Source: a virus. Taken from it: DNA of 26,650 bases. Positions 3 through 19,155 of this stretch are shown piece by piece. Below the pieces are notes generated by a model. The model was not told the origin of the DNA. It worked only from the letters and a program-made list of their open reading frames with translations, and ran no database searches. Position numbers and translations under genes: made by a program. Positions within the stretch are counted from its first letter, which is position 1; each line of letters starts with the position of its first letter. The stretch lies in IMG/VR virus record IMGVR_UViG_3300010158_000275, positions 1 to 26,650 of that record. One strand, 5' to 3'.

Positions 3-41
3 CAGCAGTCAACAACAACAACGCAGAAGCAACCATCATGA
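3..41 (+). CDS. C-terminal tail of an upstream gene (partial)
   Basis: The third frame is open from the window edge and stops with TGA at 39-41. That stop overlaps the ATG of the next gene in an ATGA arrangement. The visible tail is polar and low in complexity (QQSTTTTQKQPS). ATGA overlaps are common in this window (for example 17545 and 19428), so a real gene probably ends here. An alternative is that the following gene extends upstream in its own frame, which is also open to the edge. No function can be assigned from 12 residues. Confidence 0.4.
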   Translation, partial: QQSTTTTQKQPS

Positions 42-301
42 GCACATACACAGTTAAAATCGCAGATCGTTCAGGTCACACAGAAATGGCGGACCTCACC
101 CTGGATCAGGCAGCTGACAACATTCTCGGTAATGCTGAGAACAATGCCCGTTGGGTATTCATCAACGGCGAAAAGTTCGAGTTCGAAGGAGCCAACTACC
201 GCTCAGAAGCCAACATCAATAACCTCAAAGCCAAGCTAGAGATGCAGGTCAAGCCCGAGATCGTGCTTACAGGTGTTCTGGTTGGTGGTACTAAAGCGTA
301 A
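38..301 (+). CDS. Small ubiquitin-like (beta-grasp) protein candidate, 87 aa
   Basis: Predicted order of elements is strand (residues 3-12, YTVKIADRSG), strand (15-20), helix (21-36), strand pair (38-51, WVFINGEKFEFE) and a last strand (74-82). The last strand runs into Gly83-Gly84, followed only by Thr-Lys-Ala. This is the beta-beta-alpha-beta-beta order of ubiquitin-like folds with a diglycine close to the C terminus. From memory, PRTRC protein C (the Prok_Ub family) also ends in a short Gly-Thr-Lys type tail. A JAMM peptidase and a ThiF/E1-like enzyme are encoded just downstream, which supports the reading. If correct, removal of TKA would expose the diglycine for adenylation. It is followed by its own terminator, so it may be expressed at a different level from the enzymes. 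The fold call is by eye; an unrelated small phage protein remains possible. Confidence 0.5.
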   Translation: MSTYTVKIADRSGHTEMADLTLDQAADNILGNAENNARWVFINGEKFEFEGANYRSEANINNLKAKLEMQVKPEIVLTGVLVGGTKA

Positions 302-323
302 TCGCTAGTCTCGTAACATCACA

Positions 324-356
324 GCCCCTGGTACATAGTGTGCCAGGGGCTTTTTT
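324..356 (+). terminator. Rho-independent terminator
   Basis: A perfect 8-bp GC-rich stem (GCCCCTGG at 324-331 with CCAGGGGC at 343-350) encloses an 11-nt loop and is followed by six T. It separates the ubiquitin-like gene from the downstream 717-aa gene. Confidence 0.85.
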
Positions 357-395
357 ATGCAGCAGCCACACCCACTTGTTAGACAACTATATAGT

Positions 396-2549
396 ATGAA
401 TATATCATTTAATTCTTTTAAGAAAATAAATAAAGAGTTCTCGCAACTAAGTAAATTGATTAAACCTGCAGAGATCGAGCTGAAATATACGTACGACTCG
501 AAGTACCAACCAATATACTACACACTATATAATGCTTGTGTATTTACTAGTGTAGCCAAGATGTTTGCGTTTGCGAAAGTTAAAAATATTCGCGTACATA
601 ACACTAAGGTTGTCGGTAACGCTACAGCAGTTTGGTGGGACGATGTTCAGCTTGGATATAAAGACTACATATACACGCTCGATGAGATCACGAATGCAAC
701 TCCTCAGCTTGTAAATACACTAAAGCTGGTTCCTGAGGCTATTGCCCCGAGCTACAGACCAAAGGTCATTCGTAATGCCCCTGTAGAAACTACTGAAGGT
801 AATTATACCTACAGGTTTGTGACTAGCTATGGTACGAAAATGGATAACTACCACACCGTCGGACACTGCATATCCATAATTGCCAGGAATGATGAGCCTT
901 TGTATGACTATCTAGACAAAGGTTTCTACATCAAGACTGTAGAGTATGAGAAGAAGAACCTGGAGAAAGCGTACACACATGTTGTAGCGAATGAGTATGA
1001 CTTGAATGTGGCACACATCTTCATGATGTGTGAAATGCAGCCTTCGCTAACTGAGATGCTTCGTGACGGTTGTTTTATCAATGTTTATGAAGCAGAGCTC
1101 TTGAGGCTCAAGATGCATAAAAAGATGATGAACCCTTACAAAGCCGATTATGCAAGAGCCAGTAAAGCTATCGAAGAAGACTACAAGAGGAATACAACCC
1201 TGCTTGTGGTGGGTAAGCTGATGAGTGGGGATGTTGAAAAGACTGTAATTAATAATATTACACTAACCAAAACATCTGCCACATATGATCAGGTATCTAT
1301 CGAAGCTGCTGACCTGCTGACTGTTTTGTATAAAAAGCTGAACTTCAATAGTGAGTTTGATATTTATACAATCACAGAAGCCTACTCCAAGCATATTGAA
1401 GAGGAGCTCACAAAAGAGCGTGAAGGTATGACCACTACAGCTAAAAAAGTTGAAGAGGAAGTAGTCACTGTTAATCTTAATGAGCATGACGCTCAGCTAG
1501 AGGGTGAGGAGGAAGAAGCTCCGGCGACTCTAAAAGAACTAACGACCTTTAAAATCAACGGAATTGAAATCACTCCCTCAGTATCGAATACCTACCAACG
1601 GTATCTCAACAAGGTAAGGATTAACAAAGAGGAGATTGGTAAAGCTATTCACAGAGCTTCATGCCACAGAACTCAAAACGACTACAAGTTGTTCCTGAAG
1701 AGTATTTGCAGGATGAGTATCAAGTGGCATGATATTATTGCCAACGGACTCCCTGTGAAGATCCACAACACCATAACTGGTAGCGAATATAAGAATGAAG
1801 AGGCAGGTGTTAACGCACCTGCGCTGAAATTCGTTATTGATAAGCTTGAGAAGTGTATCAAGATCCAGGTCGACAAAGAGCGTAGCGTAAAAATTAGCTT
1901 GAGTAAGCTTGTTAAAAAAGTAGCGACCCTGAACAAAAAGACTGATAACGTTTTCATCAGAAACAGGTGGCAAACCATACATTCATACAGAACCTTCGAC
2001 TGGTGTCAGCATGAACTGATCAAGGTTCTTATCGAGGCAGCTACATTCACAGTAAAGAGTGTGGATGCTGAAGGTAAGCCTGTAGAGACAAAAACGGTGT
2101 TGCTGACCAAAGATGACATTGTGAAGCTGCTTGAGGTATCCAACGAAGCCAAGAAAGCTGCTGTAAAAAGATCCAAAGAGTTCCTGAATACAGCTGTGAA
2201 GCTGACCAAAGCCGAGATCATCGACTTCATGGGTGAACACGCTTATAAGATCGAGGGCTCTCTCAGGACATACGCTGTGGTGATCAAGAACGCCAAGGTG
2301 TATGACTATGAGACGAAACAGTATCGTTGCATTGTTAACGACAGGCACTATGCAGGGGCAGGCTACGACGACATTGCAGCTCGTCTACTAGCTCTGAAGA
2401 ACGATAGTGTCATGCAGGATAAGATTGGTACGCTTCGTGGTGCAGCTCAACCTGGGGCAGAACATGTCCACAACAACTATAACCCTGAGCGAGACAACGT
2501 GTCTTCACGCTTGGAAGAAACTGTGGATAAGGCACTAGCCGCACTATAA
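396..2549 (+). CDS. Large protein of unknown function (717 aa) next to JAB and E1-like genes
   Basis: I do not recognise the family. The ATG at 357 lies at the end of the terminator T-run, so the ATG at 396, after the A/T-rich leader CTATATAGT, is preferred. The protein has two halves joined by a very acidic linker (about residues 344-383, including a run of four Glu). The C-terminal half is Lys-rich and contains several Cys and His. No signal peptide or membrane segment is seen. The gene ends one base before the JAB peptidase gene, so the two are probably co-transcribed and co-translated. By position it could be a conjugation (E2-like) component, a substrate or a scaffold of the adjacent ubiquitin-like pathway. 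None of these roles is shown by a motif. It could also be an unrelated replication protein, since ssDNA-binding and RecA genes follow. Confidence 0.85.
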   Translation: MNISFNSFKKINKEFSQLSKLIKPAEIELKYTYDSKYQPIYYTLYNACVFTSVAKMFAFAKVKNIRVHNTKVVGNATAVWWDDVQLGYKDYIYTLDEITNATPQLVNTLKLVPEAIAPSYRPKVIRNAPVETTEGNYTYRFVTSYGTKMDNYHTVGHCISIIARNDEPLYDYLDKGFYIKTVEYEKKNLEKAYTHVVANEYDLNVAHIFMMCEMQPSLTEMLRDGCFINVYEAELLRLKMHKKMMNPYKADYARASKAIEEDYKRNTTLLVVGKLMSGDVEKTVINNITLTKTSATYDQVSIEAADLLTVLYKKLNFNSEFDIYTITEAYSKHIEEELTKEREGMTTTAKKVEEEVVTVNLNEHDAQLEGEEEEAPATLKELTTFKINGIEITPSVSNTYQRYLNKVRINKEEIGKAIHRASCHRTQNDYKLFLKSICRMSIKWHDIIANGLPVKIHNTITGSEYKNEEAGVNAPALKFVIDKLEKCIKIQVDKERSVKISLSKLVKKVATLNKKTDNVFIRNRWQTIHSYRTFDWCQHELIKVLIEAATFTVKSVDAEGKPVETKTVLLTKDDIVKLLEVSNEAKKAAVKRSKEFLNTAVKLTKAEIIDFMGEHAYKIEGSLRTYAVVIKNAKVYDYETKQYRCIVNDRHYAGAGYDDIAARLLALKNDSVMQDKIGTLRGAAQPGAEHVHNNYNPERDNVSSRLEETVDKALAAL

Positions 2550-2550
2550 A

Positions 2551-2979
2551 ATGGATATCAAGAACAAATACCTGATCTCTGCAATTCTTGATGCTGCCGC
2601 TGAATGCACTCACCCTGTCGAGGAAGAGGGAGGCATCGTACTCAGCAAAAACGACGATTATGTTTTTGCTAAAGTTAAAAACATACACAGCGGAGAAAGT
2701 ATAGCTGCTGGGCTGTATGAAACTGATCAACAGGAACTTAAGGAAAAAGTTCTAGATAAAATCGCTGAGGGATGGACGATGTATGCTAGTTTTCATACAC
2801 ATCCGTCCTTCAGTCCAACACCAAGCACACTGGATCTGACAAAATTGTTTCAAGGGTTTAAATATAATATTATTTTTGCTCCAAGAACAAACATGTTCTC
2901 GTGCAGTGAATGGGTTGGAGAAAGAACCGCTATATACTACATACCTACTGAAACACTAAAACATCTACTCGAGAACTAA
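2551..2979 (+). CDS. JAMM/JAB (MPN) metallopeptidase, PRTRC protein A-like
   Basis: The zinc-binding JAMM signature is intact: an upstream Glu (residues 24-26, EEEGG), then His82-x-His84-Pro, six residues, Ser92-x-x-Asp95. This family hydrolyses isopeptide or peptide bonds after the C-terminal glycine of ubiquitin-like proteins, with the Glu as general base. At 142 aa it is a minimal stand-alone JAB domain with no tail-assembly NlpC/P60 partner domain, so it is not the lambda gpK type. It sits one base after the 717-aa gene, and its stop overlaps the start of the ThiF-like gene (TAATG at 2977-2981). Likely roles are trimming the 87-aa protein to expose Gly-Gly, or removing it from targets. 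The domain is clear; the substrate is inferred. Confidence 0.85.
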   Translation: MDIKNKYLISAILDAAAECTHPVEEEGGIVLSKNDDYVFAKVKNIHSGESIAAGLYETDQQELKEKVLDKIAEGWTMYASFHTHPSFSPTPSTLDLTKLFQGFKYNIIFAPRTNMFSCSEWVGERTAIYYIPTETLKHLLEN

Positions 2980-3575
2980 TGTCTATTAACAAAATCGCAA
3001 TCGCCGGAGCTGGAGGTATCGGAAGCAACCTACTGGCTATCCTGTTTGACTACGGATTCAACCGTAAGCAATTCGACTATAGTCAGTTGGAGATCGATAT
3101 CTACGACGACGACACGGTTGATGTAAAGAACCTGTTACATCAGAACTTCAAGCTTGACGATATTGGCAAGCATAAGGTAGCTGTGCTAGAAGACAAATAC
3201 GTGGTTAATGGAATCAAGAAACGGATGACCGTGAAAGACTTCAAGAACTACGATTTGCTCTTTAGTTGTGTTGACAGTATGACCTTTCGTAAGGCACTGT
3301 ATGAGTATGGCTGGGCAAAGAATGATGACAAACTGTTCTGGATTGATGGTAGGTGTACCAGTAGACAGGGAGCCATGTTCACTTCGGATATGTCCAAACA
3401 ATCCCTAGAGCCATACATCAATGACTCGCAAGAAGAAGGCGGGTGTCTTCTAGCTTTCGAGAAAGAAGAGAATATCAGTCATACGCTACCTACAGTGGTT
3501 GCAGCTATGATGGTGCAAGCGTTCCTCAATAAATTGAGACATCAGAAGACAAGTAAAATGATCTTCATGGTATAA
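2979..3575 (+). CDS. ThiF/E1-like adenylyltransferase
   Basis: A Rossmann-type ATP site lies at the N terminus (IAIAGAGGIGSN, residues 6-17). It is followed by the E1/ThiF acidic signature (YDDDTVDVKNLLHQNF, 42-57), GKHK at 63-66, and CVDS at 97-100, where the Asp corresponds to the conserved acidic residue of the adenylation site. Such enzymes adenylate the C-terminal glycine of ubiquitin-like proteins, and some then form a thioester or persulfide. Possible catalytic cysteines are Cys126 (DGRCTSRQG) and Cys156 (EGGCLL). At 198 aa it is a minimal domain, shorter than ThiF or MoeB (about 250 aa), with no rhodanese or ubiquitin-fold domain. The start overlaps the JAB stop, which implies translational coupling. 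The JAB-ThiF pair matches PRTRC A and PRTRC ThiF. Confidence 0.8.
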   Translation: MSINKIAIAGAGGIGSNLLAILFDYGFNRKQFDYSQLEIDIYDDDTVDVKNLLHQNFKLDDIGKHKVAVLEDKYVVNGIKKRMTVKDFKNYDLLFSCVDSMTFRKALYEYGWAKNDDKLFWIDGRCTSRQGAMFTSDMSKQSLEPYINDSQEEGGCLLAFEKEENISHTLPTVVAAMMVQAFLNKLRHQKTSKMIFMV

Positions 3576-3578
3576 CCG

Positions 3579-3881
3579 ATGCGTTTTCAATATAAGAAAA
3601 TAGATAACGCGCGCATTGAAACGATTAGGAAAAGAAAGGCTGAGAAACATCTCTACGCACTGCTTGACAAAGCTTGTCAGTCTGTAGATATTCAGCTCGG
3701 TGAATGGGATGTCGACAAGAAGCTGTTCATGGCGATCATAAGCAGCCCAAAAGCATCATCTCGTAAGAGTAGACAGTTATTTGTAGATTACGACAACAGT
3801 TATCTACTATTGAAAGAGTTAGAGATCAAAATCCCAACAAAATACAGTTGGTTCACAAGCACACTAGACCACATTCAGTAA
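3579..3881 (+). CDS. Unknown 100-aa protein after the E1-like gene
   Basis: No family is recognised. The N-terminal 30 residues are strongly basic (IRKRKAEKH) and probably helical. The rest is mixed alpha/beta with one Cys (residue 33). It starts three bases after the ThiF-like stop and ends 14 bases before the ssDNA-binding protein gene, so it bridges the ubiquitin-like module and the recombination genes. It could belong to either module. Confidence 0.75.
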   Translation: MRFQYKKIDNARIETIRKRKAEKHLYALLDKACQSVDIQLGEWDVDKKLFMAIISSPKASSRKSRQLFVDYDNSYLLLKELEIKIPTKYSWFTSTLDHIQ

Positions 3882-3895: not shown

Positions 3896-4888
3896 ATGGC
3901 AATCATCAAACCTACCCTTAAATTCGAAGGCAGCGATCTTAACCTCACGTCATCCGCAACACCATATATCAAAGAAGACGTACGTCGTGCAGTGTTTAAT
4001 AAAAGCACGAATCAGGAGGGTGCCTATCTATACTTCCTCCCGGCCTATCGCTCCGACAACTCTGGTGGTGGTATTTGGTACAAGAAGATCACTGTCCGCG
4101 ACAACTTCGGCACTAACTTCAAGGAAAAGTACTATGTAGCTAATCGTGCTCAGGATCCTGCAGAGTATTTCGCAAACAACTTCCGTATCCTGTACCCTGA
4201 AGACTCGAAAGTCGGTGAGGTTGAGGTTAACGGCAAGAAGTTCAAGAAGTATCCTGCTCATGGCCGTGCCACAGAGCGTGTAGTTTACAATGTGGCATTT
4301 GCGCAGAGCCTCGGTACTGGGGCACATGTACTGGATCTTCCTTTACGTAATGGTGCAGACATTCTTATGGGCTGGCTGGAAGGCAAGGATCTTATGGGTA
4401 ACTCCCGTCAGCCTATTAATGATCCTGAGCGCTGCGTACCTGTTTTCGTGAAACTAAAAGAAAACAGTGCAAATCCGTGGATGATTCAGGTTGAGAACAA
4501 TCAGCCTGTAGCCTTGCCGCAGCAACTCGCCGATAGCGATTATCTGTACGACTTGGATAATATCTTCGTATCAAAATCCAACGATGAAATCATTGGAAAA
4601 CTGAGGGAGATGTACTCGACAGATGTGTTCGATGACTGTATGAGTGGATATGCTGGTTTGAAAAAACCAACAGCGCAGGGAACCAGCTTCCAGACTCCTC
4701 CAGTTCCTGTGCGAGAGATTCCAAAGCCTGTAGCAGTACAAGCAATTGAAATCCCTAAAGCCACAATCAAGGCACCCACACAGGCAATCAACCCGCCAGC
4801 TGCAGCAGATATCTCCTCTCTACCAGCAAACCCTATGGGTAAGATGAGTAGGGAAGAAGCTATGCGCTTCATCTCGCAAAACGACTAA
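3896..4888 (+). CDS. gp32-like single-stranded DNA-binding protein
   Basis: The 330-aa product resembles T4 gp32-type SSBs in its core, with aromatic and basic residues around GIWYKKITVRDNFG and a YFANNFRILYP segment. A Pro/Ala-rich flexible linker (about residues 255-315) leads to a short C-terminal tail ending in SQND. Such proteins coat ssDNA and load recombinase and helicase. The open frame reaches back to 3848, but the ATG at 3896 follows an A-rich leader typical of this phage, and the extra N-terminal residues overlap the preceding gene. The RecA-like gene begins eight bases after its stop, the expected partner. Assignment rests on overall resemblance and context; zinc ligands of T4 gp32 are not obvious. 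Confidence 0.65.
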   Translation: MAIIKPTLKFEGSDLNLTSSATPYIKEDVRRAVFNKSTNQEGAYLYFLPAYRSDNSGGGIWYKKITVRDNFGTNFKEKYYVANRAQDPAEYFANNFRILYPEDSKVGEVEVNGKKFKKYPAHGRATERVVYNVAFAQSLGTGAHVLDLPLRNGADILMGWLEGKDLMGNSRQPINDPERCVPVFVKLKENSANPWMIQVENNQPVALPQQLADSDYLYDLDNIFVSKSNDEIIGKLREMYSTDVFDDCMSGYAGLKKPTAQGTSFQTPPVPVREIPKPVAVQAIEIPKATIKAPTQAINPPAAADISSLPANPMGKMSREEAMRFISQND

Positions 4889-4896: not shown

Positions 4897-6114
4897 ATGG
4901 ATCTCGAAGCATACCTAAGCTCAATTAAGAAAGGTTTTGGAAAAACATTCAAAACCGAGGCAGTCAACCTTGACCTCAACACAGTAGACAAGGAGCTGCC
5001 ACCCACAGGTATTGTCGTCGATAATCCATTAATGGAGTATGCATTCGACCGTAGGTTTATGGCCTACGGTCGGTGCTATCTTCTTTATGGTAAAAAAGGC
5101 TGCAGTAAAACAACGCTATTGTTCGACCTTGCTAAAACCTTCCAGAAGGCTGGGGGCAAGATGTTCTGGATCGAGACTGAGAATGCTCCTGACTTCAGGT
5201 ATATGGCGCTTCAGGGTGTCGATCCGACAGGGGTGATCTATCACAACCCAAAAAGCATCGAAGAAGCATTGACCCTGGCTAAGATGGCCATCGAGAACTT
5301 CGCAAAATACAACGACGGCAAGACACCGATGTTGATTGCGTTGGACTCTATCGCTGGCGGTGCTACCGAGTATGAGCGTGACCAGGATGTTATTGGTCAG
5401 GCAAAACCTGGGGAGCATGCCAAGCTGATGGCAGCCTTCTATCGTCACATTATTCCATATCTAGAGTGTGAGAATATGGTGTTCGTGGCTACTAATCAGC
5501 TGCGTGATCAGATCGGTGGTATGCAAGGATTCGGTGCTGAGAAGCCTGAAGCCTTGCTGGGTGGTGAAGCTCAGAGGTTTAACAGCACCTATCAGTTCAA
5601 GGTTGCCCGTATCAGGGACAATCTGACTGAGGACCATATGGGCGTTAATCGCAAGAGCGGATCTACTCATACCCTTACTGTAAAGCGTAACAAACTAGGC
5701 CGTGAGGGTAACAGTCAGAAGATTGAGTTCGATGTGCATATCAATGGCGGTATTGACTGGAGTTCACCACTAGTAAGAAAGCTGGGGGAAGAATATCCTC
5801 CACTTGTAGGTAAAACAGGTGGTTGGTATAACTGGCGAAAAGCAGGTATGGAATACTGTATTGACGTAGAGGGATCGGAACCTATCCGAGGTAAGATAGA
5901 TCCTGACAAGAAATACAGAGAACAAGAACTAGGGATGCTTATCAAAAGCAGTCCTGAAGCTAAAGAAGAAATCAGAACGGCCTTCGGTATTCCTGATATG
6001 CCACCTCCTGAAGTAGAACAGGAAATCGCAGAAGTAAACAAAACTAGACGCAAAAAGAAAAGCGAGCTAGATGTAGATCAACCAGAACAGCAATACAGTC
6101 ACGACAATGAGTAA
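4897..6114 (+). CDS. RecA/UvsX-like recombinase
   Basis: The Walker A site is GKKGCSKT (residues 65-72), with the expected Lys-Thr. The catalytic-type Glu lies in WIETEN (about 91-96). Walker B is MLIALDS (Asp150), followed by a RecA-style L1/L2 region (ATNQLRDQIGGMQGFGAE ... LGGEAQRF). This family forms filaments on ssDNA and drives strand exchange. The length of 405 aa fits UvsX/RecA-type phage recombinases. The C-terminal 30 residues are charged and probably disordered. It directly follows the ssDNA-binding protein gene and overlaps the next gene by eight bases. A DnaB-type or RadA-type ATPase is less likely because of the TNQLRDQIG segment. Confidence 0.8.
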   Translation: MDLEAYLSSIKKGFGKTFKTEAVNLDLNTVDKELPPTGIVVDNPLMEYAFDRRFMAYGRCYLLYGKKGCSKTTLLFDLAKTFQKAGGKMFWIETENAPDFRYMALQGVDPTGVIYHNPKSIEEALTLAKMAIENFAKYNDGKTPMLIALDSIAGGATEYERDQDVIGQAKPGEHAKLMAAFYRHIIPYLECENMVFVATNQLRDQIGGMQGFGAEKPEALLGGEAQRFNSTYQFKVARIRDNLTEDHMGVNRKSGSTHTLTVKRNKLGREGNSQKIEFDVHINGGIDWSSPLVRKLGEEYPPLVGKTGGWYNWRKAGMEYCIDVEGSEPIRGKIDPDKKYREQELGMLIKSSPEAKEEIRTAFGIPDMPPPEVEQEIAEVNKTRRKKKSELDVDQPEQQYSHDNE

Positions 6115-8856: not shown

Positions 8857-8944
8857 GCCTTGTTGACCCGAATTGGCTAAGGGCCTCGATTTGTAATCGA
8901 GTATGAGGGAAACCTCTTTACGGGTTCGAGTCCCGTGCAAGGCT
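8857..8944 (+). tRNA. tRNA with anticodon UGU (Thr) and long variable arm
   Basis: The acceptor stem is GCCTTGT (8857-8863) with GCAAGGC (8937-8943). The anticodon stem CTCGA/TCGAG (8885-8889, 8897-8901) encloses TTTGTAA, which reads TGT. The T arm is ACGGG-TTCGAGT-CCCGT (8920-8936). The variable region is 18 nt and forms its own GAGG/CCTC stem, the class II form normal for Ser, Leu and Tyr but not Thr. The discriminator base is T, and CCA is not encoded (TCCC follows). The charging amino acid is therefore uncertain despite the Thr anticodon. Confidence 0.75.
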
Positions 8945-8952
8945 CCCCTTTT

Positions 8953-9198
8953 ATGTTCACCTGGATCTTCACATTTTTATCTGTATTTATAATAAACGTA
9001 GCCTACACCTATTACTTGAAGGCTGTACAAAAGGAGAAGCCTCTACTGGCTAGCTCCTGGTCCATGTTTATAAATCTTACAGCTAGTGTGGTAGCTATAG
9101 AGTACATCGCAAATCATTGGCTATTGATTCCCTCATGCCTTGGTTCATTCTGTGGCACATGGGTAGGTATGAAGGTAGCCAGAGAGAAATCTGAATAG
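8953..9198 (+). CDS. Small integral membrane protein (81 aa)
   Basis: Three hydrophobic segments are visible: about residues 2-22 (FTWIFTFLSVFIINVAYTYY), 33-52 and 56-73. Short charged loops and a charged C terminus (KVAREKSE) complete it. The open frame begins inside the tRNA at 8935; the ATG at 8953, after CCCCTTTT, is preferred. Similar three-helix proteins ending in a GxxxGTWxxMK-like motif are familiar from phage genomes as hypotheticals. It probably sits in the inner membrane; its role is unknown. Confidence 0.7.
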   Translation: MFTWIFTFLSVFIINVAYTYYLKAVQKEKPLLASSWSMFINLTASVVAIEYIANHWLLIPSCLGSFCGTWVGMKVAREKSE

Positions 9199-9202
9199 CT
9201 GT

Positions 9203-9763
9203 ATGGAACACTTTTACCAAGATATACAAGGCTGGTTTGACTTTGAGGATATCTATTCAGAGATGGTGGCCTCTGCAGCGAACGGAGCTAATTTTGTAGA
9301 GATAGGCTCCTGGAAAGGTAAAAGCAGCGCATACATGGCTGTAGAGATAGCCAATTCAAATAAAGATATTAAATTTTACTGCGTGGATACTTGGCTAGGT
9401 AGCATAGAGCACGCAGGGTTCGGTGAGGTTATGGATGATAGTTTGTATAATATCTTTCTAGATAATATGAAACCTGCAGCTGGTTACTTTCAGGCTGTTA
9501 GAATGCGTTCTGTAGAGGCAGCCTCTGTGATAAGAGATGGATTCTTTGATTTTATATTCATAGATGCATCCCATGAGTATAGTGACGTCGCAGCTGACCT
9601 GGAAAGCTGGTACCCTAAGCTAAAAACTGGAGGTGTACTAGCTGGTCATGATTACGAGCCTCGATGGGAGAGTGTGATAGCAGCAGCGGACGACTTTGCA
9701 AAAAATAAAAACTTAAAGGTCAGTAAAACTTCAAATATTTGTTTCAGGTTAGATAAACTTTAA
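9203..9763 (+). CDS. Class I SAM-dependent methyltransferase (Methyltransf_24 type)
   Basis: Motif I is FVEIGSWKGKSSAYMA (about residues 31-46), with the E-x-G-x-x-x-G SAM loop. It is followed by YCVDTW at the end of strand 2, FIFIDASHEY for strand 4, and LAGHDY for strand 5. This arrangement is typical of small phage and bacterial methyltransferases found in glycan or small-molecule modification clusters. At 186 aa it is a bare catalytic domain with no DNA-recognition region, so DNA methylation is unlikely. A second methyltransferase and a glycosyltransferase gene follow, separated only by a tRNA and a small gene. Confidence 0.8.
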   Translation: MEHFYQDIQGWFDFEDIYSEMVASAANGANFVEIGSWKGKSSAYMAVEIANSNKDIKFYCVDTWLGSIEHAGFGEVMDDSLYNIFLDNMKPAAGYFQAVRMRSVEAASVIRDGFFDFIFIDASHEYSDVAADLESWYPKLKTGGVLAGHDYEPRWESVIAAADDFAKNKNLKVSKTSNICFRLDKL

Positions 9764-9764
9764 C

Positions 9765-9840
9765 CGTGATGTCGCCTAGCGGCTATGGCACTTGCCTTGG
9801 GAGCAAGTTATCGAAGGTTCGAGTCCTTCCATCACGACCA
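9765..9840 (+). tRNA. tRNA-Pro (UGG)
   Basis: The acceptor stem is CGTGATG (9765-9771) with CATCACG (9830-9836), then discriminator A and an encoded CCA (9838-9840). The anticodon arm is CTTGC-CTTGGGA-GCAAG, giving TGG. The T arm AAGG/CCTT around TTCGAGT is present. It is a standard class I tRNA. Confidence 0.9.
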
Positions 9841-9849
9841 CTTTTAATA

Positions 9850-10131
9850 ATGCAAGAGAAATACGAAACATTAACAGGTCGGGTAGCTCTGCTATATAAT
9901 GAAAACGGATGCAGGGTCTTTTTGGTAAAATGCGACCTAGGAAAATTCAAGGTTGTAGACTATCAACCAGTACCTCTAGATAGAGAGATCTATTGGGACA
10001 ATGCATCTGGTAATATCTTAAACTCTAATAGTGCTGAGTATGCCATGGCCAGTGTGCTGGTTGATGGTTATATTGAAGGAGTTTATGAAAAGCTAGGTCC
10101 TGAAGAGCGTAAAAAATGGCCGTTGGTTTAA
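9850..10131 (+). CDS. Unknown 93-aa protein
   Basis: The open frame reaches back into tRNA-Pro, so the ATG at 9850 is chosen. The product has alternating beta-strand segments (GRVALLYNENGCRVFLVKCDLGKF) and an acidic middle. No family is recognised. It separates the two methyltransferase genes. Confidence 0.65.
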   Translation: MQEKYETLTGRVALLYNENGCRVFLVKCDLGKFKVVDYQPVPLDREIYWDNASGNILNSNSAEYAMASVLVDGYIEGVYEKLGPEERKKWPLV

Positions 10132-10151
10132 AATTAAATAAAACTAAACGT

Positions 10152-10748
10152 ATGACTAGAACAGACATAATTAACCTATTAGCCAAACACAATAATGCTT
10201 CAAGTTATCTCGAGGTAGGTGTTAGGGATACTGAAGAAAACTTCAATAAGATCATCTGTGAACTAAAGCATGGGGTAGATCCTGCGCTGGGGCCAGGCAG
10301 CTATACGCAAGGTATGGGCTATCAGACCTACTCAGACATCTACTTTGAATATATCAATAAAGATGTATTGTATGATATTATTCTAATCGACGGGCTACAT
10401 ACTGAAGAACAGGTCGACAAGGATATCAAGAACAGTCTAGATAGACTAACACCTTCAGGAGTTATCGTATTGCATGACTGCAGTCCTCCTAATGAAGAAT
10501 TTGAGCAGCCGCACTGGTGTGGTACTGTCTGGAGAAGTCTATACAAACTACATCGAGACACAACAGATCTGGAAATATGTGTGGTGGATACAGACTACGG
10601 ATGTGGTATTGTGCGTAAAGGAGATAAAGTTCGTATGAACGTCTCAGATCCTGAAGAATTGAGTTACGCTTTCCTGGATAATAATAGAAAAGAAGTATTG
10701 AATCTGATCAGCATAACGGAGTTTATACAGAAGATTATCAATGACTAA
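10152..10748 (+). CDS. Second SAM methyltransferase-like protein
   Basis: Motif I is YLEVGVRDTEENFNKI, with the strand-2 acid in GVDPA. YDIILIDGLHTEEQVDKDI covers strand 4 and the following helix, and VIVLHDCSPP is strand 5. The LIDGLH and LHDC pairs are characteristic of the Methyltransf_24/cephalosporin-hydroxylase-like group. The frame could start at 10116 inside the preceding gene, but the ATG at 10152 after an A-rich leader is preferred. It overlaps the glycosyltransferase gene by eight bases. The glycine-rich loop is less regular than in the 9203 gene, so the activity is less certain. Confidence 0.7.
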   Translation: MTRTDIINLLAKHNNASSYLEVGVRDTEENFNKIICELKHGVDPALGPGSYTQGMGYQTYSDIYFEYINKDVLYDIILIDGLHTEEQVDKDIKNSLDRLTPSGVIVLHDCSPPNEEFEQPHWCGTVWRSLYKLHRDTTDLEICVVDTDYGCGIVRKGDKVRMNVSDPEELSYAFLDNNRKEVLNLISITEFIQKIIND

Positions 10749-11496
10749 AGACAATCATATCGTACATTGCGTCTGGGTTGGTAGTGCTTTAAGTTTACTC
10801 GAGAAGTTGACAATTAAGTTACTGCTTTCGCATGGACATGAGGTACATTTATGGTCGTATGCAGTTATTGAGAATACCCCAGAAGGGGTAGTAAATAGAG
10901 ACGCTGGTGACATATTGCCATCGAGCTCTATGTTCAGGTATGATGGGGAGCCTCTAGATTGTTTACCTAACGGAGGCAAAGGCTCACTGTCTCACTGGTC
11001 AGATCAATTCCAGCTAAAACTGCTTGATAAGTATGGAGGAATCTATACTCAAATGGATGTGTCTCATCTAACTCCGTTGTGCTTCAAGAATAGTGTTGCG
11101 ATGCCTGTATGGAAGGGTGAGGATACCTGTGTAGCTCCCTACATAATGAAATGTCCTGCAGGCGAGGGATTCACGAAGCGGGCCTACGAGAAGACATCGA
11201 AGGTAATACATAAGGATACTCTATGGAATGGGATAGATTGGAACATATCCATGAGACTTATGGGAGAAGCTCTAGAGCAAACCTACGGTAATATTGAGGA
11301 ATGTTCGATAGATCTTTCCACTGCATGGGATCTAGGATGTAGAGATAATGGTCCTTTTTTCGAGGATATGGAAATACCTGATGACATAACAACCATACAC
11401 TGGTCTAATGCTACGGTTAACAAGCGTAAGGATGACCCGATAGTTGGTAGTACCTACTGGAGACTACTAAAAAAGATGAAGCTGATAGCTGACTAA
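10741..11496 (+). CDS. GT32-like glycosyltransferase
   Basis: The N terminus IVHCVWVGSALSLLEKL fits the opening of GT32-type (capsule/mannosyl) glycosyltransferases. HEVHLWSY and SDQFQLKLLDKYGGIYTQMDVSHLTPL follow. The second of these is the usual donor-site helix plus Y-G-G-I-Y motif. The DxD metal motif appears as Gln104-Met-Asp106, so the first Asp is replaced. At 251 aa it has a full catalytic domain and no membrane segment. With the two methyltransferases it may modify a surface glycan, a virion protein or a nucleotide; the acceptor is unknown. Confidence 0.65.
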   Translation: MTKDNHIVHCVWVGSALSLLEKLTIKLLLSHGHEVHLWSYAVIENTPEGVVNRDAGDILPSSSMFRYDGEPLDCLPNGGKGSLSHWSDQFQLKLLDKYGGIYTQMDVSHLTPLCFKNSVAMPVWKGEDTCVAPYIMKCPAGEGFTKRAYEKTSKVIHKDTLWNGIDWNISMRLMGEALEQTYGNIEECSIDLSTAWDLGCRDNGPFFEDMEIPDDITTIHWSNATVNKRKDDPIVGSTYWRLLKKMKLIAD

Positions 11497-11574
11497 CGGT
11501 AAATTTTTGTTGCATCCTTAGATGAAATAAAGAATACTGATAGAAGCTGATCTGCCATGTGTAGAAACAGTAAC
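11497..11574. other. Intergenic stretch, nothing identified
   Basis: A/T-rich noncoding sequence between the glycosyltransferase gene and the boxB-like hairpin. A promoter for the tRNA cluster could lie here, but no convincing consensus is seen. Confidence 0.4.
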
Positions 11575-11614
11575 GAGCTTGTTTGCTAAACCAGACAAGC
11601 TCAGCTCTTTAACA
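11575..11614 (+). promoter_or_regulatory. boxB-like hairpin plus rrn-type boxA antitermination site
   Basis: GAGCTTGT (11575-11582) pairs perfectly with ACAAGCTC (11595-11602). Two bases later comes GCTCTTTAACA (11604-11614), which matches the core of bacterial rRNA-leader boxA elements bound by NusB/NusE (S10). It lies seven bases upstream of a tRNA gene. The order hairpin then boxA is that of rrn leaders. It probably recruits host antitermination factors to keep polymerase moving through the structured, noncoding tRNA stretch. Confidence 0.6.
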
Positions 11615-11621
11615 TTTTAAT

Positions 11622-11695
11622 CGCGGGATAGTGAAGTGGTAAAACACCAGTCTCATAAGCTGGGGTCCCAGGTTCGATTCCTGGTCCTGCAACCA
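11622..11695 (+). tRNA. tRNA-Met (CAU) with initiator-type C1xA72 mismatch
   Basis: The acceptor stem is CGCGGGA (11622-11628) opposite TCCTGCA (11685-11691). The first pair is a C-A mismatch, then discriminator A and encoded CCA (11693-11695). The CCA and T-arm (CCAGG-TTCGATT-CCTGG) fix this register. The anticodon arm is CCAGT-CTCATAA-GCTGG, giving CAT. The mismatch and the GCAACCA end copy bacterial initiator tRNA, but the three consecutive G-C pairs of the initiator anticodon stem are absent. Elongator Met or Ile2 (modified CAU) are alternatives. Confidence 0.85.
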
Positions 11696-11702
11696 ATTTA
11701 TG

Positions 11703-11756
11703 CCTTGAGATCCTTCCTCTGTTGCACTCAACAGAGAGGCCTCAAGGTTTCTTTTC
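11703..11756 (+). terminator. Nested hairpin with T-rich tail
   Basis: The outer stem CCTTGAG (11703-11709) pairs with CTCAAGG (11741-11747). An inner stem of CTCTGTTG and CAACAGAG lies inside. TTTCTTTTCT follows. It looks like a rho-independent terminator or a processing structure after the CAU tRNA. Confidence 0.6.
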
Positions 11757-11991
11757 TCAGTAACCACGACCCCCCTGGTATATAGGTAAGATTGTGATTG
11801 GAATGTAACAATCCGTAAATCCTGCTGAGAATTGCGACACCTGCCATACTGGACTAATCCGGTATGTGTGGTCCGGGTTACTCGGGCGAAAAAGTGGTGT
11901 GACAACGGCGTGGAGAGACACGGACCAGTAAGACTGGGATGGCGACACCTGCCTAGAGTGGTGCGACACTGGGAGAGACTAGACAATTTAT
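11757..11991 (+). ncRNA. Unexplained structured noncoding region, possible ncRNA
   Basis: About 235 nt between two tRNAs without a credible gene, and visibly richer in G and C than its surroundings. Possible stems are CATACTGG/CCGGTATG (11845-11852 with 11859-11866, one G-T pair), TGGTCCG/CGGACCA (11869-11875 with 11921-11927) and CCAGT/ACTGG (11925-11929 with 11933-11937). The last two overlap and so are alternatives. GCGACACCTGCC occurs twice (11834-11845 and 11942-11953), and a related GTGCGACACTGG lies at 11961-11972. It does not fold as a normal tRNA by eye. It may be a small phage RNA or the remains of lost tRNA genes. Confidence 0.4.
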
Positions 11992-12063
11992 TCCTGGATA
12001 GCTCAATGGTAGAGCGCGAAACTGTTAATTTCGATGTTGTAGGTTCGAGGCCTACTCCAGGAG
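11992..12063 (+). tRNA. tRNA-Asn (GUU)
   Basis: The acceptor stem is TCCTGGA (11992-11998) with TCCAGGA (12056-12062), discriminator G. The D arm is GCTC-AATGGTA-GAGC. The anticodon arm CGAAA-CTGTTAA-TTTCG gives GTT. The T arm is GTAGG-TTCGAGG-CCTAC. CCA is not encoded, so a host or phage nucleotidyltransferase must add it. Confidence 0.9.
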
Positions 12064-12068
12064 CATAT

Positions 12069-12154
12069 GGGTAGTTATACTGTTAAGGACACAGTCCAGA
12101 CTGTAAATCTGGCGCAGAGATGCTGGGTGGGCTCGATCCCCACACTACCCACCA
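12069..12154 (+). tRNA. tRNA-Tyr (GUA)
   Basis: The acceptor stem is GGGTAGT (12069-12075) with ACTACCC (12144-12150), then A and encoded CCA (12152-12154). The anticodon arm CCAGA-CTGTAAA-TCTGG gives GTA. It has the extended variable arm expected for bacterial Tyr tRNA. The T arm is GTGGG-CTCGATC-CCCAC. It begins five bases after tRNA-Asn. Confidence 0.9.
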
Positions 12155-12185
12155 CTTAGTTTATGATATATTGATATTAAATAGC

Positions 12186-12422
12186 ATGAAACCTGACATA
12201 AAACCTAAAGTAGGTAAATTCTACTATATAGATTACGAAGATAAAGAAGAAGCGTCCGGCTCATACTTCGGTATAGCTGAATGCATCAAGACATACGAAA
12301 GAGATGAGGAAGGCAAACCAGTCGATCCTCCACTCTACGAGTTCATACATCCTCAACCAGACGGTAAAATGGTAAGGGCACTTTATTACGCGTCAGAGAT
12401 AACGACAGAGTTTAACTTTTAA
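12186..12422 (+). CDS. Unknown 78-aa acidic protein
   Basis: The frame extends back into tRNA-Tyr, so the ATG at 12186 is taken. The product has beta-rich segments (VGKFYYIDYEDKEE, GSYFGIAECIKTYERDEEGK) and resembles the small SH3-like or beta-barrel hypotheticals of phages, but the family is not recognised. It lies between two tRNA genes. Confidence 0.65.
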   Translation: MKPDIKPKVGKFYYIDYEDKEEASGSYFGIAECIKTYERDEEGKPVDPPLYEFIHPQPDGKMVRALYYASEITTEFNF

Positions 12423-12428
12423 CTTTTC

Positions 12429-12502
12429 TGGCCTTTGGTGTAATGGTAACACAGGAGATTTTGAATCTCTTATTCCAGGTTCGAGCCCTGGGAGGCCAAC
12501 CA
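12429..12502 (+). tRNA. tRNA-Gln (UUG)
   Basis: The acceptor stem is TGGCCTT (12429-12435) with GAGGCCA (12492-12498), then A and encoded CCA (12500-12502). The anticodon arm GGAGA-TTTTGAA-TCTCT gives TTG. The T arm is CCAGG-TTCGAGC-CCTGG. It starts six bases after the previous stop codon. Confidence 0.9.
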
Positions 12503-12537
12503 ATGTCAGTGAATAGTAAATAAACAAACAAATAAAT

Positions 12538-13293
12538 ATGAAAAAATACGGATGGATTAAAGATAAGCACGACGACAGAGACAAACCGTTTAAGGCAAAA
12601 GCCACTCCTCCCAAAGTATTCACACCCACAGATCTCAGGCCGTGGTGTCCGCCTGTACTCGATCAAGGGCAGCTGGGAGCTTGTACAGCTTTTGGTACAA
12701 CAGAAATGGTGCATTTTGTTCGCAATAAACAAAAGGCTCAAGATTTCACACCGGCTCCATTGTTCACGTACTATGCAACTAGGCAGATTGAGAACACTGT
12801 AAATGAAGATTCTGGGGCAATGGTTCGGAATGCTTTGAAAAGCGCCGTACTGTATGGCGTTGTGCAAGAAGAAAAGTGGCACTACGACATTGCGAAGTTT
12901 ACTGTCAAACCTACACCAGACATCTATGCAGAAGCTCTCAAGCACCAAACACTACAGTATCGCAGGATTAGTGACGGACTGATTCATGATATGCAGCAGT
13001 GCTTGTTCGAAGGTTATCCCTTCACATTCGGAGCTATTTTATTTGATAGCTTTGAAAGTCCTGCTGTGGCAAGGAACGGTGTTGTACCTATGCCTCATGC
13101 TGGTGAAGGTCAGCTTGGCGGGCATTGCATGCTTTGCGTCGGTTGGAAAGTTATCAGTGGACATAACTATTTCATTATTCAGAATAGCTGGGGTACGGGA
13201 TGGGGAGATCACGGCTTCTGCTATATTCCGTTCGAGTACATGGGTAATAGAAACCTAGTAAACGATCTCTGGACAATTCATCTTGAGGAGTAA
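12538..13293 (+). CDS. Papain-like (C1A) cysteine protease
   Basis: The catalytic set is complete: oxyanion Gln and nucleophile in DQGQLGACTAF (Cys49), His196 in GGHCMLCVGW, and Asn216 in IQNSWGTGWGDHGFCYIPFEY. The 251-aa length is a bare C1 peptidase domain with only a short N-terminal segment (WIKDKHDDRDKPF) and no signal peptide. It therefore should act inside the infected cell or in the virion. Related C1 proteases occur in bacteria and some large phages. The leader is A-rich (AAATAAACAAACAAATAAAT) with no Shine-Dalgarno. A strong terminator follows. Roles could be prohead maturation or cutting of a host protein; neither is shown by context. Confidence 0.85.
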   Translation: MKKYGWIKDKHDDRDKPFKAKATPPKVFTPTDLRPWCPPVLDQGQLGACTAFGTTEMVHFVRNKQKAQDFTPAPLFTYYATRQIENTVNEDSGAMVRNALKSAVLYGVVQEEKWHYDIAKFTVKPTPDIYAEALKHQTLQYRRISDGLIHDMQQCLFEGYPFTFGAILFDSFESPAVARNGVVPMPHAGEGQLGGHCMLCVGWKVISGHNYFIIQNSWGTGWGDHGFCYIPFEYMGNRNLVNDLWTIHLEE

Positions 13294-13313
13294 TATTTCC
13301 CCCTAATAAACAG

Positions 13314-13350
13314 GGCGGGTAGGGATTATTCTCTACCCGCCTTTTCTTTT
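13314..13350 (+). terminator. Strong rho-independent terminator
   Basis: The 9-bp stem GGCGGGTAG (13314-13322) and CTACCCGCC (13333-13341) has a 10-nt loop and is followed by TTTTCTTTT. It ends the protease transcript. Confidence 0.9.
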
Positions 13351-13358
13351 ATAAATAT

Positions 13359-13553
13359 ATGAGTGCATACACAATAACCTGGGAAACATACAGAGCAATG
13401 CAAGACAGAATCACTAGTCTTGAAAAACTAAACAAAGAGCTTACTCAACTCAAGCCAGACTATGAGGTAGCTGCTGAGATTATTCTATTGGAAGCTGAGC
13501 ATGAAATAGGACGGTTGAAGCAGGAAATTAAAAAATTAAAAGGAGAACAATAA
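13359..13553 (+). CDS. Small coiled-coil protein (64 aa)
   Basis: Almost the entire product is a charged helix with regularly spaced Leu/Ile (ITSLEKLNKELTQL, then EIGRLKQEIKKLKG), suggesting a coiled coil. It opens the operon after the terminator. One base separates its stop from the next ATG. Confidence 0.75.
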   Translation: MSAYTITWETYRAMQDRITSLEKLNKELTQLKPDYEVAAEIILLEAEHEIGRLKQEIKKLKGEQ

Positions 13554-13554
13554 T

Positions 13555-13755
13555 ATGTTAAGTACAGGCTTCCCAGACGACGAAGACCCAAACCTAGTTG
13601 ACGATCCTGAGTGTCCTACATGCGGGAACATCCTGGACGTAGGTAATGGTGAGGTTCTTTGTAAAAACTGTAATTTTCACGACGAAGTGGATATCCCCGA
13701 TCCTCCAGACTATTGGGACTACAACGGTCCCACACCTTACAACCACCTAGACTAA
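13555..13755 (+). CDS. Zinc-ribbon protein (66 aa)
   Basis: Two Cys pairs form a ribbon: CPTCG (about residues 20-24) and CKNC (about 39-42), separated by 15 residues (NILDVGNGEVL). The tails are acidic and Pro-rich (DIPDPPDYWDY). Probably a protein- or nucleic-acid-binding mini-domain. The start follows AGGAGAACAATAAT within the previous gene, one of the few Shine-Dalgarno-like strings here. Confidence 0.75.
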   Translation: MLSTGFPDDEDPNLVDDPECPTCGNILDVGNGEVLCKNCNFHDEVDIPDPPDYWDYNGPTPYNHLD

Positions 13756-13757
13756 AT

Positions 13758-14009
13758 ATGAGTAACGTAGACCATCCAGACCACTATAACCAGGGAGAGA
13801 TTGAGTGTATCGATGTTATCGAACAACTCAACTTGAGTTTCTGTCTAGGTAACGCCTTAAAGTACATTTGGCGCTGCAAAGACAAAGGTAGAATGATAGA
13901 AGATCTTAACAAGGCTATCTGGTATATCGACAGAGAGATAACAAACACACGAAAGGCTATTCATGTGGAGAAAGAGAGAAATAATGAGAAGAGCAAACTG
14001 GAATCATAA
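13758..14009 (+). CDS. DUF3310 family protein
   Basis: The sequence DHPDHYNQGEIECIDVIEQL ... GNALKYIWRCKDKGRMIEDLNKAIWYIDREI matches the phage DUF3310 family. It has the HPxHY motif and the conserved K-Y-x-x-R-x-x-x-K-G segment. A DUF3310-like domain occurs in T7 gp1.7, a nucleotide kinase, but short versions such as this 83-aa one have no proven activity. The open frame reaches 13713; the ATG at 13758, two bases after the previous stop, is chosen. Confidence 0.8.
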   Translation: MSNVDHPDHYNQGEIECIDVIEQLNLSFCLGNALKYIWRCKDKGRMIEDLNKAIWYIDREITNTRKAIHVEKERNNEKSKLES

Positions 14010-14520
14010 TCACCCACCCAAAGAACCTTCACATTTTGAAGTGTTCGATGATGGTGTATTGATATACTCTGGTAATTACGATGAAGGTATGAAGCTTATG
14101 GAAGAGGTTTCCCCTATCGCAATACTGAGGACTGAATTGGAGAAAACAAAACTACAGCTAGAGAAAGTCAAAGAAAGACTAGCCGTTGTAGAGAAACAGC
14201 GAGATGACGCATCTCAGCTATTGTCTGATCTAGACGATCTCAATAGCGGTGTAGACAGATCTACATGCGTACATTTTGTACCGTCGATTCTATCCTGTGA
14301 GGAATGTTCTAAAAACACACGTTCAACCCTCTCGGAGAAATACCTAGAACTATTGAGTCTTGTGGATGGAGCTAAAGACATAATAGAAATATATACCCCT
14401 GTAGGACCATATAACGCAGGTTGGAAAAGGCGCTGGCTCTCGAAGGTACATGAGCTACTAGCAGAATACGGCAGCAACAATAATAATAGTTATGAACAGA
14501 GAAGAACTGGAGAATCTTAG
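13984..14520 (+). CDS. Coiled-coil protein of unknown function (178 aa)
   Basis: Residues 40-90 form a long charged helix (LRTELEKTKLQLEKVKERLA...), a probable coiled coil. After it, CVHFVPSILSCEEC could bind zinc through Cys residues. The start at 13984, overlapping the DUF3310 gene by 26 bases, is preferred over one 21 bases upstream. The C terminus is Asn-rich. No family is recognised. Confidence 0.7.
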   Translation: MRRANWNHNHPPKEPSHFEVFDDGVLIYSGNYDEGMKLMEEVSPIAILRTELEKTKLQLEKVKERLAVVEKQRDDASQLLSDLDDLNSGVDRSTCVHFVPSILSCEECSKNTRSTLSEKYLELLSLVDGAKDIIEIYTPVGPYNAGWKRRWLSKVHELLAEYGSNNNNSYEQRRTGES

Positions 14521-14785
14521 AAACAAGGGACCCTGCAGCTGCAACCAGCCAGATTGCTGGTATTGTGCAGCTATCGGAGACTTTAAATTTCAATGGGTTC
14601 TAGCCAAAGGAGAAAGAGACATCTATGCAAACCAACTTGAAAGAGCTCTTGCAATAGCAGGTGCTCTGGCGGAATATAAAAACGACCCTGAACTTGCGGA
14701 AACTTGGGGAGTCATGCTAGATAATCTAGTTTCTGAAGTTCAAGGGAAACCTAAACAACTAGAAGAAAATGTCAGCGAAATTTAA
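14492..14785 (+). CDS. Small Cys-rich protein (97 aa)
   Basis: CSCNQPDCWYC (about residues 15-25) gives four closely spaced Cys, probably a zinc-binding knuckle. The rest is helical. It overlaps the genes on both sides (29 and 17 bases), which suggests coupling. The function is unknown. Confidence 0.7.
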   Translation: MNREELENLRNKGPCSCNQPDCWYCAAIGDFKFQWVLAKGERDIYANQLERALAIAGALAEYKNDPELAETWGVMLDNLVSEVQGKPKQLEENVSEI

Positions 14786-15182
14786 AAATATAGAAGTCAC
14801 AGAAGAGTTTTTAAATTCACAACCAAACGCGTATTTTGTATTCGGAGATAATACAATTAAAAAGGGTTTGGCAGGAGCAGCCAAGCTAAGGAACCATCCT
14901 AGAGCTATAGGCTTCGTAACTAAAAAAGCTCCAGATGGGAATCCTAAAAGCTGCTATACTCCAGATGAATATGCAAAAATATTCTTTGGCCAGTTGAAGC
15001 AGCTTGAGTCTCATGTTAAAGGAAACCCGCAGCGCAAGTTCTATGTATCCAAGCTAGGAGCTGGGCTAGCTAACAGATACTACATCTGGGAGACAGTGAT
15101 TCACCATAACCTGATAGCCGAGCTAGGAGCTTACGATAACGTAATCTTCTGTTGGGAACAAGAAAGACTAACATCAAACTAA
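14769..15182 (+). CDS. Conserved phage protein with FGDN motif (137 aa)
   Basis: The N-terminal half has AYFVFGDNTIKKGLAGAA, then RNHPRAIGFVTKKAPD and CYTPDEYAKIFF. This Gly-Asp-Asn ... Gly-x-x-x-Ala-Ala pattern is recurrent in phage and bacterial hypotheticals and recalls nucleotide- or ADP-ribose-binding loops. That functional guess is not established. It ends one base before the RNA ligase gene. Confidence 0.7.
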   Translation: MSAKFKNIEVTEEFLNSQPNAYFVFGDNTIKKGLAGAAKLRNHPRAIGFVTKKAPDGNPKSCYTPDEYAKIFFGQLKQLESHVKGNPQRKFYVSKLGAGLANRYYIWETVIHHNLIAELGAYDNVIFCWEQERLTSN

Positions 15183-15183
15183 T

Positions 15184-16245
15184 ATGGAAAAATTAGCAGC
15201 AATAGCGAAAGTATTAGAATTAGCTCCTATTGAGGGAGCGGATAGAATTGAACGAGCCACGGTTCTTGGTTGGCATACTGTGGTCAAGAAAGGATTACAC
15301 AAGGTCGGTGATCTTGTGGTAATGATATTCCCTGACTCATATGCACCTAAAAGATATGTCGATGACTCCTATGCTGGTGAGGAAAAAACCAGGATCAAGA
15401 CATTAAAGATGCGTGGGCAATATAGTGCAGGGTTAGTCCTGCCCTTATATGAACTAACGCAAGCAGCCTTAACCTCAGCAGACATTCCTCCAGAAACCTG
15501 GGAAGAAGGCATGGAGGTAAGTGTTTGGCTAGGTGTTGAGAAGTGGGTGGCTCCCGTTAGTGCCTCCGTTGGAGGAGAAACGAAAGGAGACTTCCCTACT
15601 AACATATTAAGAAAGACTGACGAACACAACTTCCGTAGTGAACCTCAGGCTCTAGAAGAAGCAAGGACATCAGAGAAGTTTGCTGATGTTGAATTCGTGG
15701 CTACCTTGAAGTGTGACGGTAGCAGCGGAACATTCATACTCAAAAATGGAGAGTTCCGTGTATGTGGGAGAAACAAAGAGTTTGTGGAAACTGAAAGTAA
15801 TAGTTTCTGGAAGATAGCCAAGAAGTATAAAATTGAAGAAATGCTGAGAGCTGCACCTGTAGAGATGGCCTTACAGGGAGAAGCTTGCGGTCCAGGTATT
15901 CAGAAGAATCCTCTTAAACTAGACGAGCTAACCTTCCTGGTCTTCCAGATCAGGGATGTTACGAATCACAAATGGTTCACTTGGGATCAAGTTAAAAAAA
16001 TATGTGAAACACACGGAATTCCTCACGTTCCTGAAGTAACTAGATTCAAGTTCTCGGGAGAGTCTCCGAGTATTGATGAGCTGCAAGAGTTGGCAAACAA
16101 CGCTAAGTATGACAATGGTAGAGCGAACGCTGAAGGAATTGTCATTCGTCCAGTGGTGCCAGTCAAATCAACCGTACTCCAGCAAGATTGTTGGAGTCTC
16201 AAGGTAATGAATCAACCGTACGACACGAAGAAAGGAAGAGAATAA
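15184..16245 (+). CDS. ATP-dependent RNA ligase, Rnl5 type
   Basis: The N-terminal domain (residues 1-115, LAAIAKVLELAPIEGADRIE ... WHTVVKKG) is the OB-like module of Rnl5-type ligases such as Naegleria NgrRnl. Motif I is Lys176 in TLKCDGSSG, the adenylated lysine. Motif IIIa lies in GEACGPGIQKNPL, motif IV in EGIVIRP and motif V in WSLKVMN. The 353-aa length fits the family. It seals 5'-phosphate/3'-OH RNA ends. With the kinase-phosphatase encoded at 21167 it can complete repair of cut tRNA. Its stop overlaps the next start (TAATG at 16243-16247). Confidence 0.85.
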   Translation: MEKLAAIAKVLELAPIEGADRIERATVLGWHTVVKKGLHKVGDLVVMIFPDSYAPKRYVDDSYAGEEKTRIKTLKMRGQYSAGLVLPLYELTQAALTSADIPPETWEEGMEVSVWLGVEKWVAPVSASVGGETKGDFPTNILRKTDEHNFRSEPQALEEARTSEKFADVEFVATLKCDGSSGTFILKNGEFRVCGRNKEFVETESNSFWKIAKKYKIEEMLRAAPVEMALQGEACGPGIQKNPLKLDELTFLVFQIRDVTNHKWFTWDQVKKICETHGIPHVPEVTRFKFSGESPSIDELQELANNAKYDNGRANAEGIVIRPVVPVKSTVLQQDCWSLKVMNQPYDTKKGRE

Positions 16246-16466: not shown

Positions 16467-16470
16467 TAAT

Positions 16471-17103: not shown

Positions 17104-17110
17104 TTAAACA

Positions 17111-18019: not shown

Positions 18020-18020
18020 T

Positions 18021-19148: not shown

Positions 19149-19155
19149 TAATATT

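Follow-up and report, generated by a model that had tools for sequence, protein, structure and literature searches.

Ubiquitin-like systems of bacteria are known mainly as anti-phage defences or as metabolic sulfur carriers. In type II CBASS, the E1–E2 fusion Cap2 acts on the C-terminus of a CD-NTase. In Bil (BilABCD) and polyUbl operons, the ubiquitin-like precursor is cleaved by a JAMM enzyme (PMC11354881). Sulfur carriers of the QbsE/PdtH/CysO type lie in metabolic operons with an E1 that is often fused to a rhodanese, and the pairs of ubiquitin-like (UBL) and JAB proteins known from phages serve in tail assembly and have no E1 (PMC1779556). We found no description in the open-licence literature of a phage module of the kind analysed here, which consists of four genes encoding a small Gly-Gly protein (UBL), a large partner protein (P717), a JAB/JAMM peptidase and a minimal ThiF/E1, with a RecA/UvsX gene downstream. 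The module occupies positions 38-3575 (plus strand) of the window, by which we mean the whole stretch analysed, a 26,650-base virus record (positions 1-26,650 of IMG/VR IMGVR_UViG_3300010158_000275). The left edge of the window falls within the UBL gene or slightly 5' of it. The features are listed below; lineages 1 and 2 are the two groups of relatives described further on.

38..301, plus strand: UBL87, a proposed ubiquitin-like tag with Gly83-Gly84 and then a predicted disposable Thr-Lys-Ala tail; an open reading frame whose N-terminus may continue past the left edge
323..356, plus strand: terminator-like hairpin and T-run in the gap between UBL and P717; hairpin present in 25/25 lineage-1 loci
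396..2549, plus strand: P717, large partner protein, always in the four-gene core; Cys423 and Cys645 invariant
2551..2979, plus strand: JAB/JAMM peptidase (PF14464); ligands invariant in 36 sequences
2979..3575, plus strand: minimal ThiF/E1 activating enzyme (PF00899); catalytic residues invariant in 36 sequences
3579..3881, plus strand: P100, a small accessory gene, not core
3896..4888, plus strand: neighbour gene in the SSB position, syntenic in lineage 1
4897..6114, plus strand: RecA/UvsX recombinase (PF00154, PHROG UvsX), a lineage-1 neighbour

A first-pass annotation made from the sequence placed these reading frames correctly, and the residues that it had singled out (the GGTKA end of the 87-aa protein, the JAMM residues, GAGGIGS and Asp99) are all present. 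It had also described SSB and RecA genes downstream. The RecA assignment was confirmed by Pfam (PF00154, 1.6e-20) and by the UvsX PHROG (4.6e-33), but the SSB assignment was not, as the gene at 3896-4888 had no Pfam or PHROGs match and the label denotes its position only. P100 is missing from several lineage-1 loci and was not seen in lineage 2. Further along, the part of the window from 8857 to 22027 carries five tRNA genes and, in order of position, genes for two methyltransferases (9203, 10116), a papain-like protease (12538), an RNA ligase (15184), an ATP-dependent DNA ligase (18021) and a polynucleotide kinase/phosphatase (21167).

Scanning IMG/VR with E1, P717 and RecA as baits, we found the same four genes together in 36 further contigs after removal of duplicates, giving 37 records including the window; one relative (L021) ends inside the module, and only its UBL and P717 are visible. 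With RecA as bait, all four genes were present in every locus with enough upstream DNA. The records fall into two lineages. In lineage 1, to which the window belongs, the order is UBL-P717-JAB-E1-(P100)-SSB position-RecA. Lineage 2, reached via P717 homologues of ~25-28% identity, has the order P717-UBL-(an extra gene in some)-JAB-E1 and different surroundings, in which neither an SSB nor a RecA neighbour was seen. Amino-acid change was well below synonymous change in the pairs of close relatives with enough changes to compare and, judged by these substitution patterns, the module genes are under purifying selection. The gene arrangement is far from chance, because 36 other viral contigs share it under such selection. 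Moreover, since the four-gene set outlasts rearrangement and a changed context, P717 appears to belong to the system and not merely to lie beside it. The association of UBL, JAB and ThiF genes, on which the first-pass reading depended, was kept in every related phage examined.

Additional genes lie within some of these loci. A gene read from its sequence as a predicted 3'-5' exonuclease-like gene is often found between P717 and JAB (L002 4908-5570, with equivalents in L004, L006, L007, L010, L012-L014 and L016-L018), and several lineage-2 phages carry an extra gene of ~270 aa between UBL and JAB (L162 9202-10023, L164 9066-9872). Most of the contigs are uncultivated and possibly incomplete. 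Their assignment to phages rests on the IMG/VR classification and on phage-type replication genes, and for lineage 2 also on tail genes read from the sequence; generic terminase or sheath families matched only a few or some of the large relatives. INPHARED phages held no relatives of UBL, P717 or JAB, and no E1 relative was confirmed in the genome contigs collection, which was scanned by two short patterns only.

The length of 87 aa for the window's UBL may be a minimum, because its reading frame is open up to the left window edge and relatives have Asn-rich N-terminal extensions. In the alignment, Gly83 and Gly84 are among the residues invariant in 37/37 UBLs (the Gly-Gly of L053, L055 and L174 was read separately). 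The Gly-Gly may be the end of the protein or be followed by 1 to 9 divergent residues or by 75 to ~155 residues; the long extensions belong to the UBL proteins encoded at L019 2922-3407, L053 2644-3375 and L157 6868-7548, and part of the extension is a domain shared by L019 and L053. In lineage 2, UBL terminates exactly at the Gly-Gly. An AlphaFold2 model built from a 26-member alignment (pLDDT 77.8, pTM 0.61) had the topology bb-a-bb-a-b, where b is a strand and a is a helix. Its PDB matches were mostly of the ubiquitin-like, SUMO, ISG15, MoaD, PB1 and protein G types and were all weak (best Foldseek E 0.039; no VIA Z above 4.8), which lends the fold support short of proof. With moderate confidence, the model suggests a beta-grasp-like UBL, in agreement with the first-pass annotation. 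Neither UBL nor P717 matched a Pfam or NCBIfam family above cut-off, and neither had a significant PHROGs or PADLOC match. A toxin-B domain match of UBL (Pfam E 0.013, below cut-off) was seen in 4/26 members only and was treated as chance.

In 25/25 lineage-1 loci examined (the window and 24 relatives), a strong hairpin separates the UBL stop from the P717 start. These hairpins are mostly GC-rich and mostly followed by T-rich sequence, and their sequence differs between clades. Computed in 70-base windows, z was < -3 at this gap in 18/19 loci compared with 3/19 and 4/19 at two other cluster junctions, values that are approximate because the shuffles preserved base composition only. A terminator after the UBL gene would probably keep UBL in excess of the enzymes.

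The JAB protein matched Prok-JAB (PF14464, 3.6e-8, 33.7 bits against a cut-off of 25) and has AfJAMM and Mov34/MPN as PDB relatives. Its signature, Glu25 and His82-x-His84-x7-Ser92-x2-Asp95, is invariant in 36 sequences. The gene is kept in lineage 2 although UBL has no tail there. Because JAB persists where UBL ends at the Gly-Gly, it is more likely to be deconjugating than only precursor-trimming, which argues for a predicted role beyond precursor maturation.

The E1 protein is 198 aa long with a single ThiF domain (PF00899, 3.5e-18, 66.1 bits against a cut-off of 28.1). Its nucleotide-binding motif reads GAGGIGS in the window, and GAGGIG, Asp43, Asp45, Asn51, Gln55, Lys66, Asp99, Arg125 and Cys156 are invariant in 36 sequences. 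The usual Arg of the NLxRQ motif of ThiF/E1 proteins, which contacts ATP in MoeB, is absent, the position being His54 in the window and lineage 1 and Tyr in lineage 2; PRTRC ThiF rows retain this Arg in the profile alignment. The invariant Arg125 might compensate for it. Pfam detected no rhodanese domain in E1, its sequence has no CxxC zinc pairs, and similarity to the PADLOC E1-E2 models was weak and partial. Profile comparison with PRTRC ThiF (hhalign 99.5%) covered the adenylation core and aligned Cys156 to a conserved PRTRC cysteine, and TIGR03736 (PRTRC ThiF) was the best NCBIfam match, scoring 49.7 bits where the cut-off is 144.75. In a maximum-likelihood tree, the phage E1s formed one clade (89/80) apart from PRTRC (96/92), and the nearest other E1s were the ThiF proteins of Flavobacterium phage Fpv3 and Dulem virus 41. 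The parallel with PRTRC cassettes drawn by the first-pass annotation thus extends to E1 only, and there to a match below cut-off that the tree separates. In L012 (4682-6456), the E1 gene is interrupted by ~1.15 kb after residue ~47; the insert, possibly an intron or other mobile element, had no Rfam match.

P717 accompanies the module even where gene order and neighbours differ. Its reading frame at 396-2549 encodes 717 aa; a 730-aa form would begin at 357, and the start at 396 is likelier because 357 lies directly after the T-run of the terminator-like hairpin. Cys423 and Cys645 are invariant in 37 P717 sequences, some of them only ~25% identical. The whole model (pLDDT 81, pTM 0.48) had no PDB fold match in a structural search and matched three viral models of 416-452 aa. 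In the whole-model VIA search, residues 571-684 aligned to several RWD/UBC-type chains at Z 2-4 only, among rows that also include the unrelated CapZ, frataxin and p32; an E2-like domain is possible on the basis of the model. Residues 594-651 (window 2175-2348) weakly resemble DUF7737 (PF24879, 17.5 bits against a cut-off of 27), a MolR-type domain found at the C-terminus of large bacterial proteins whose function is unknown. A weak match was seen in 20/24 P717 members (best E 0.0015), and hhalign gave 82% for 35 aligned columns that take in a shared Y-x-C-I-V motif.

No E2 or E3 was recognisable in the module by Pfam, PADLOC, NCBIfam or profile-profile comparison. A PRTRC-B-type E2 in P717 was not supported (profile-profile 0.2 to 0.5%); one forced C-terminal alignment placed Cys645 on the PRTRC-B cysteine, was not significant and was discounted as evidence. 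We propose P717, from its sequence, as a candidate transferase or target-recruiting enzyme. A bolder and more tentative idea, which we hold to be possible rather than probable, is that P717 founds a class of its own among thioester-forming ubiquitin-like transferases, uniting E2 and E3, with an active site at Cys645 or Cys423 and a sequence that shows no discernible relation to known E2s, which would give large phages self-contained tagging and untagging during infection.

The observations are the conservation of the four genes together and of their key residues; as predicted from its genes, the locus is probably a phage-encoded system of ubiquitin-like conjugation and deconjugation. In UBLs that have a short tail, JAB would cut it off behind Gly84, a step suggested by a Gly-Gly that never varies, a tail that does, and the adjoining JAMM gene. 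The ThiF-type E1 would then use ATP to adenylate the Gly-Gly carboxylate, probably forming a thioester on Cys156, as family chemistry and the invariance of the residues lead us to expect. In the weakest step of the scheme, P717 might take UBL on Cys645 or Cys423 or recruit the target, replacing a separate E2 and E3. UBL would be attached to amine groups of phage or host proteins, and JAB would also take the tag off, since lineage 2, with a UBL gene that already stops at the Gly-Gly, still has JAB. The first-pass annotation held that the phage makes its own ubiquitin-like tag and attaches it, perhaps to host defence or replication proteins. There is good support for a ubiquitin-like phage module that includes E1 and JAB, but we do not carry over the named targets, which are speculation; the idea of replication targets is further weakened because lineage 2 is without SSB and RecA neighbours.

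The main rival to conjugation is a sulfur carrier like those of the QbsE/PdtH/CysO type, in which E1 would turn UBL into a thiocarboxylate, the sulfur donor for a nucleoside, a tRNA or a metabolite; JAB would trim the precursor and P717 would be the sulfur-transfer or acceptor enzyme. Such systems also have a Gly-Gly with a short tail beside a JAMM gene (PMC1779556), and E1 is ThiF-like. We nevertheless find this reading unlikely: the 198-aa single-domain E1 has no fused rhodanese, and JAB is kept where no tail needs cutting. The window proteins scanned also contained no rhodanese or cysteine-desulfurase domain, although host enzymes could supply the sulfur. The constant presence of P717 and the lack of a recognisable E2 would also suit a dedicated pair: E1 would pass UBL without an E2 to P717 alone, and P717 would be a protein that acts in replication or binds DNA and is controlled by its tag. 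Part of the P717 model gave OB-fold/SSB-type Foldseek matches that would fit such a protein, but they were weak and not significant, and the two cysteines that never vary point to a chemical role for P717 more than to that of a passive substrate; we consider this arrangement quite unlikely.

Phages also offer a precedent for UBL and JAB proteins acting without E1-driven conjugation, in a structural or chaperone role like that of TAPI and TAPK in lambda tail assembly (PMC1779556), and JAB has a weak PHROGs match to a tail protein (2.1e-5). Such a role is very improbable for a module that lies outside a tail operon, has no NlpC domain and always includes an E1 with a conserved ATP site. That the phage simply carries a true PRTRC cassette was already disfavoured and seems extremely improbable. 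The order C-F-B-A-ThiF is colinear with UBL-P717-JAB-E1 and TIGR03736 is the best NCBIfam match of E1, but E1 scores far under the cut-off of that family and falls outside the PRTRC clade, and homology to PRTRC B, C, E and F was undetectable. HMM and profile-profile searches gave no match to PRTRC C (Prok_Ub), B (Prok-E2_D), E or F in a test insensitive enough to miss JAB against PRTRC_A. The comparison with Prok_Ub and Prok-E2 families that the first-pass annotation had suggested likewise detected no homology by Pfam, NCBIfam or profile-profile comparison, and the same was true of PRTRC_B.

If the conjugation reading is true, phages wield protein tagging themselves as a tool of infection, and the module would be a minimal system in which to study the evolution of ubiquitination. 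It makes testable which proteins the phage tags and whether P717 replaces E2/E3.

Set against the known systems, the module resembles QbsE/PdtH/CysO-type sulfur carriers in that a small Gly-Gly protein has an E1-like and a JAMM partner, but it is neither rhodanese-fused nor placed in a metabolic operon. Tail assembly in lambda and T1 likewise pairs a phage UBL with a JAB (PMC1779556); there, however, the genes sit in a tail operon and the JAB is fused to NlpC/P60. With type II CBASS it has in common E1-type activation and a JAB, as in Cap2/Cap3, whereas the phage E1 of 198 aa has no E2 part and UBL is separate; no CD-NTase was found among the window proteins scanned. Bil and polyUbl operons resemble it in having a UBL, an E1 and a JAMM peptidase. 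BilA, however, has two UBL domains and works with a separate E2, BilB, whereas the phage protein has one UBL domain of ~80 aa, and its module combines a 717-aa partner and a phage context with the lack of a recognisable E2. In Flavobacterium phage Fpv3, Dulem virus 41, Acinetobacter phage ME3 and Bacillus phage KLEB27-3, a related E1 gene also has a JAB or PRTRC_A-like gene next to it or close by, and no P717 homologue or Gly-Gly UBL was detected alongside in these cultured-phage loci. Five loci from cultured or named phages and a Lysinibacillus plasmid (L058, L059, L060, L165 and L166) have this pairing of ThiF with a nearby JAB or PRTRC_A-like gene without P717. The PRTRC cassette of plasmids (ParB-E-C-F-B-A-ThiF) is alike in placing a UBL-type gene first and JAB and ThiF last, and in an E1 that is homologous over the adenylation core and has the same conserved cysteine. 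It differs from the phage module in that P717 has no PRTRC counterpart by sequence, the phage E1s form their own clade below the PRTRC cut-off, and the phage tag ends in Gly-Gly where PRTRC C ends in a single Gly.
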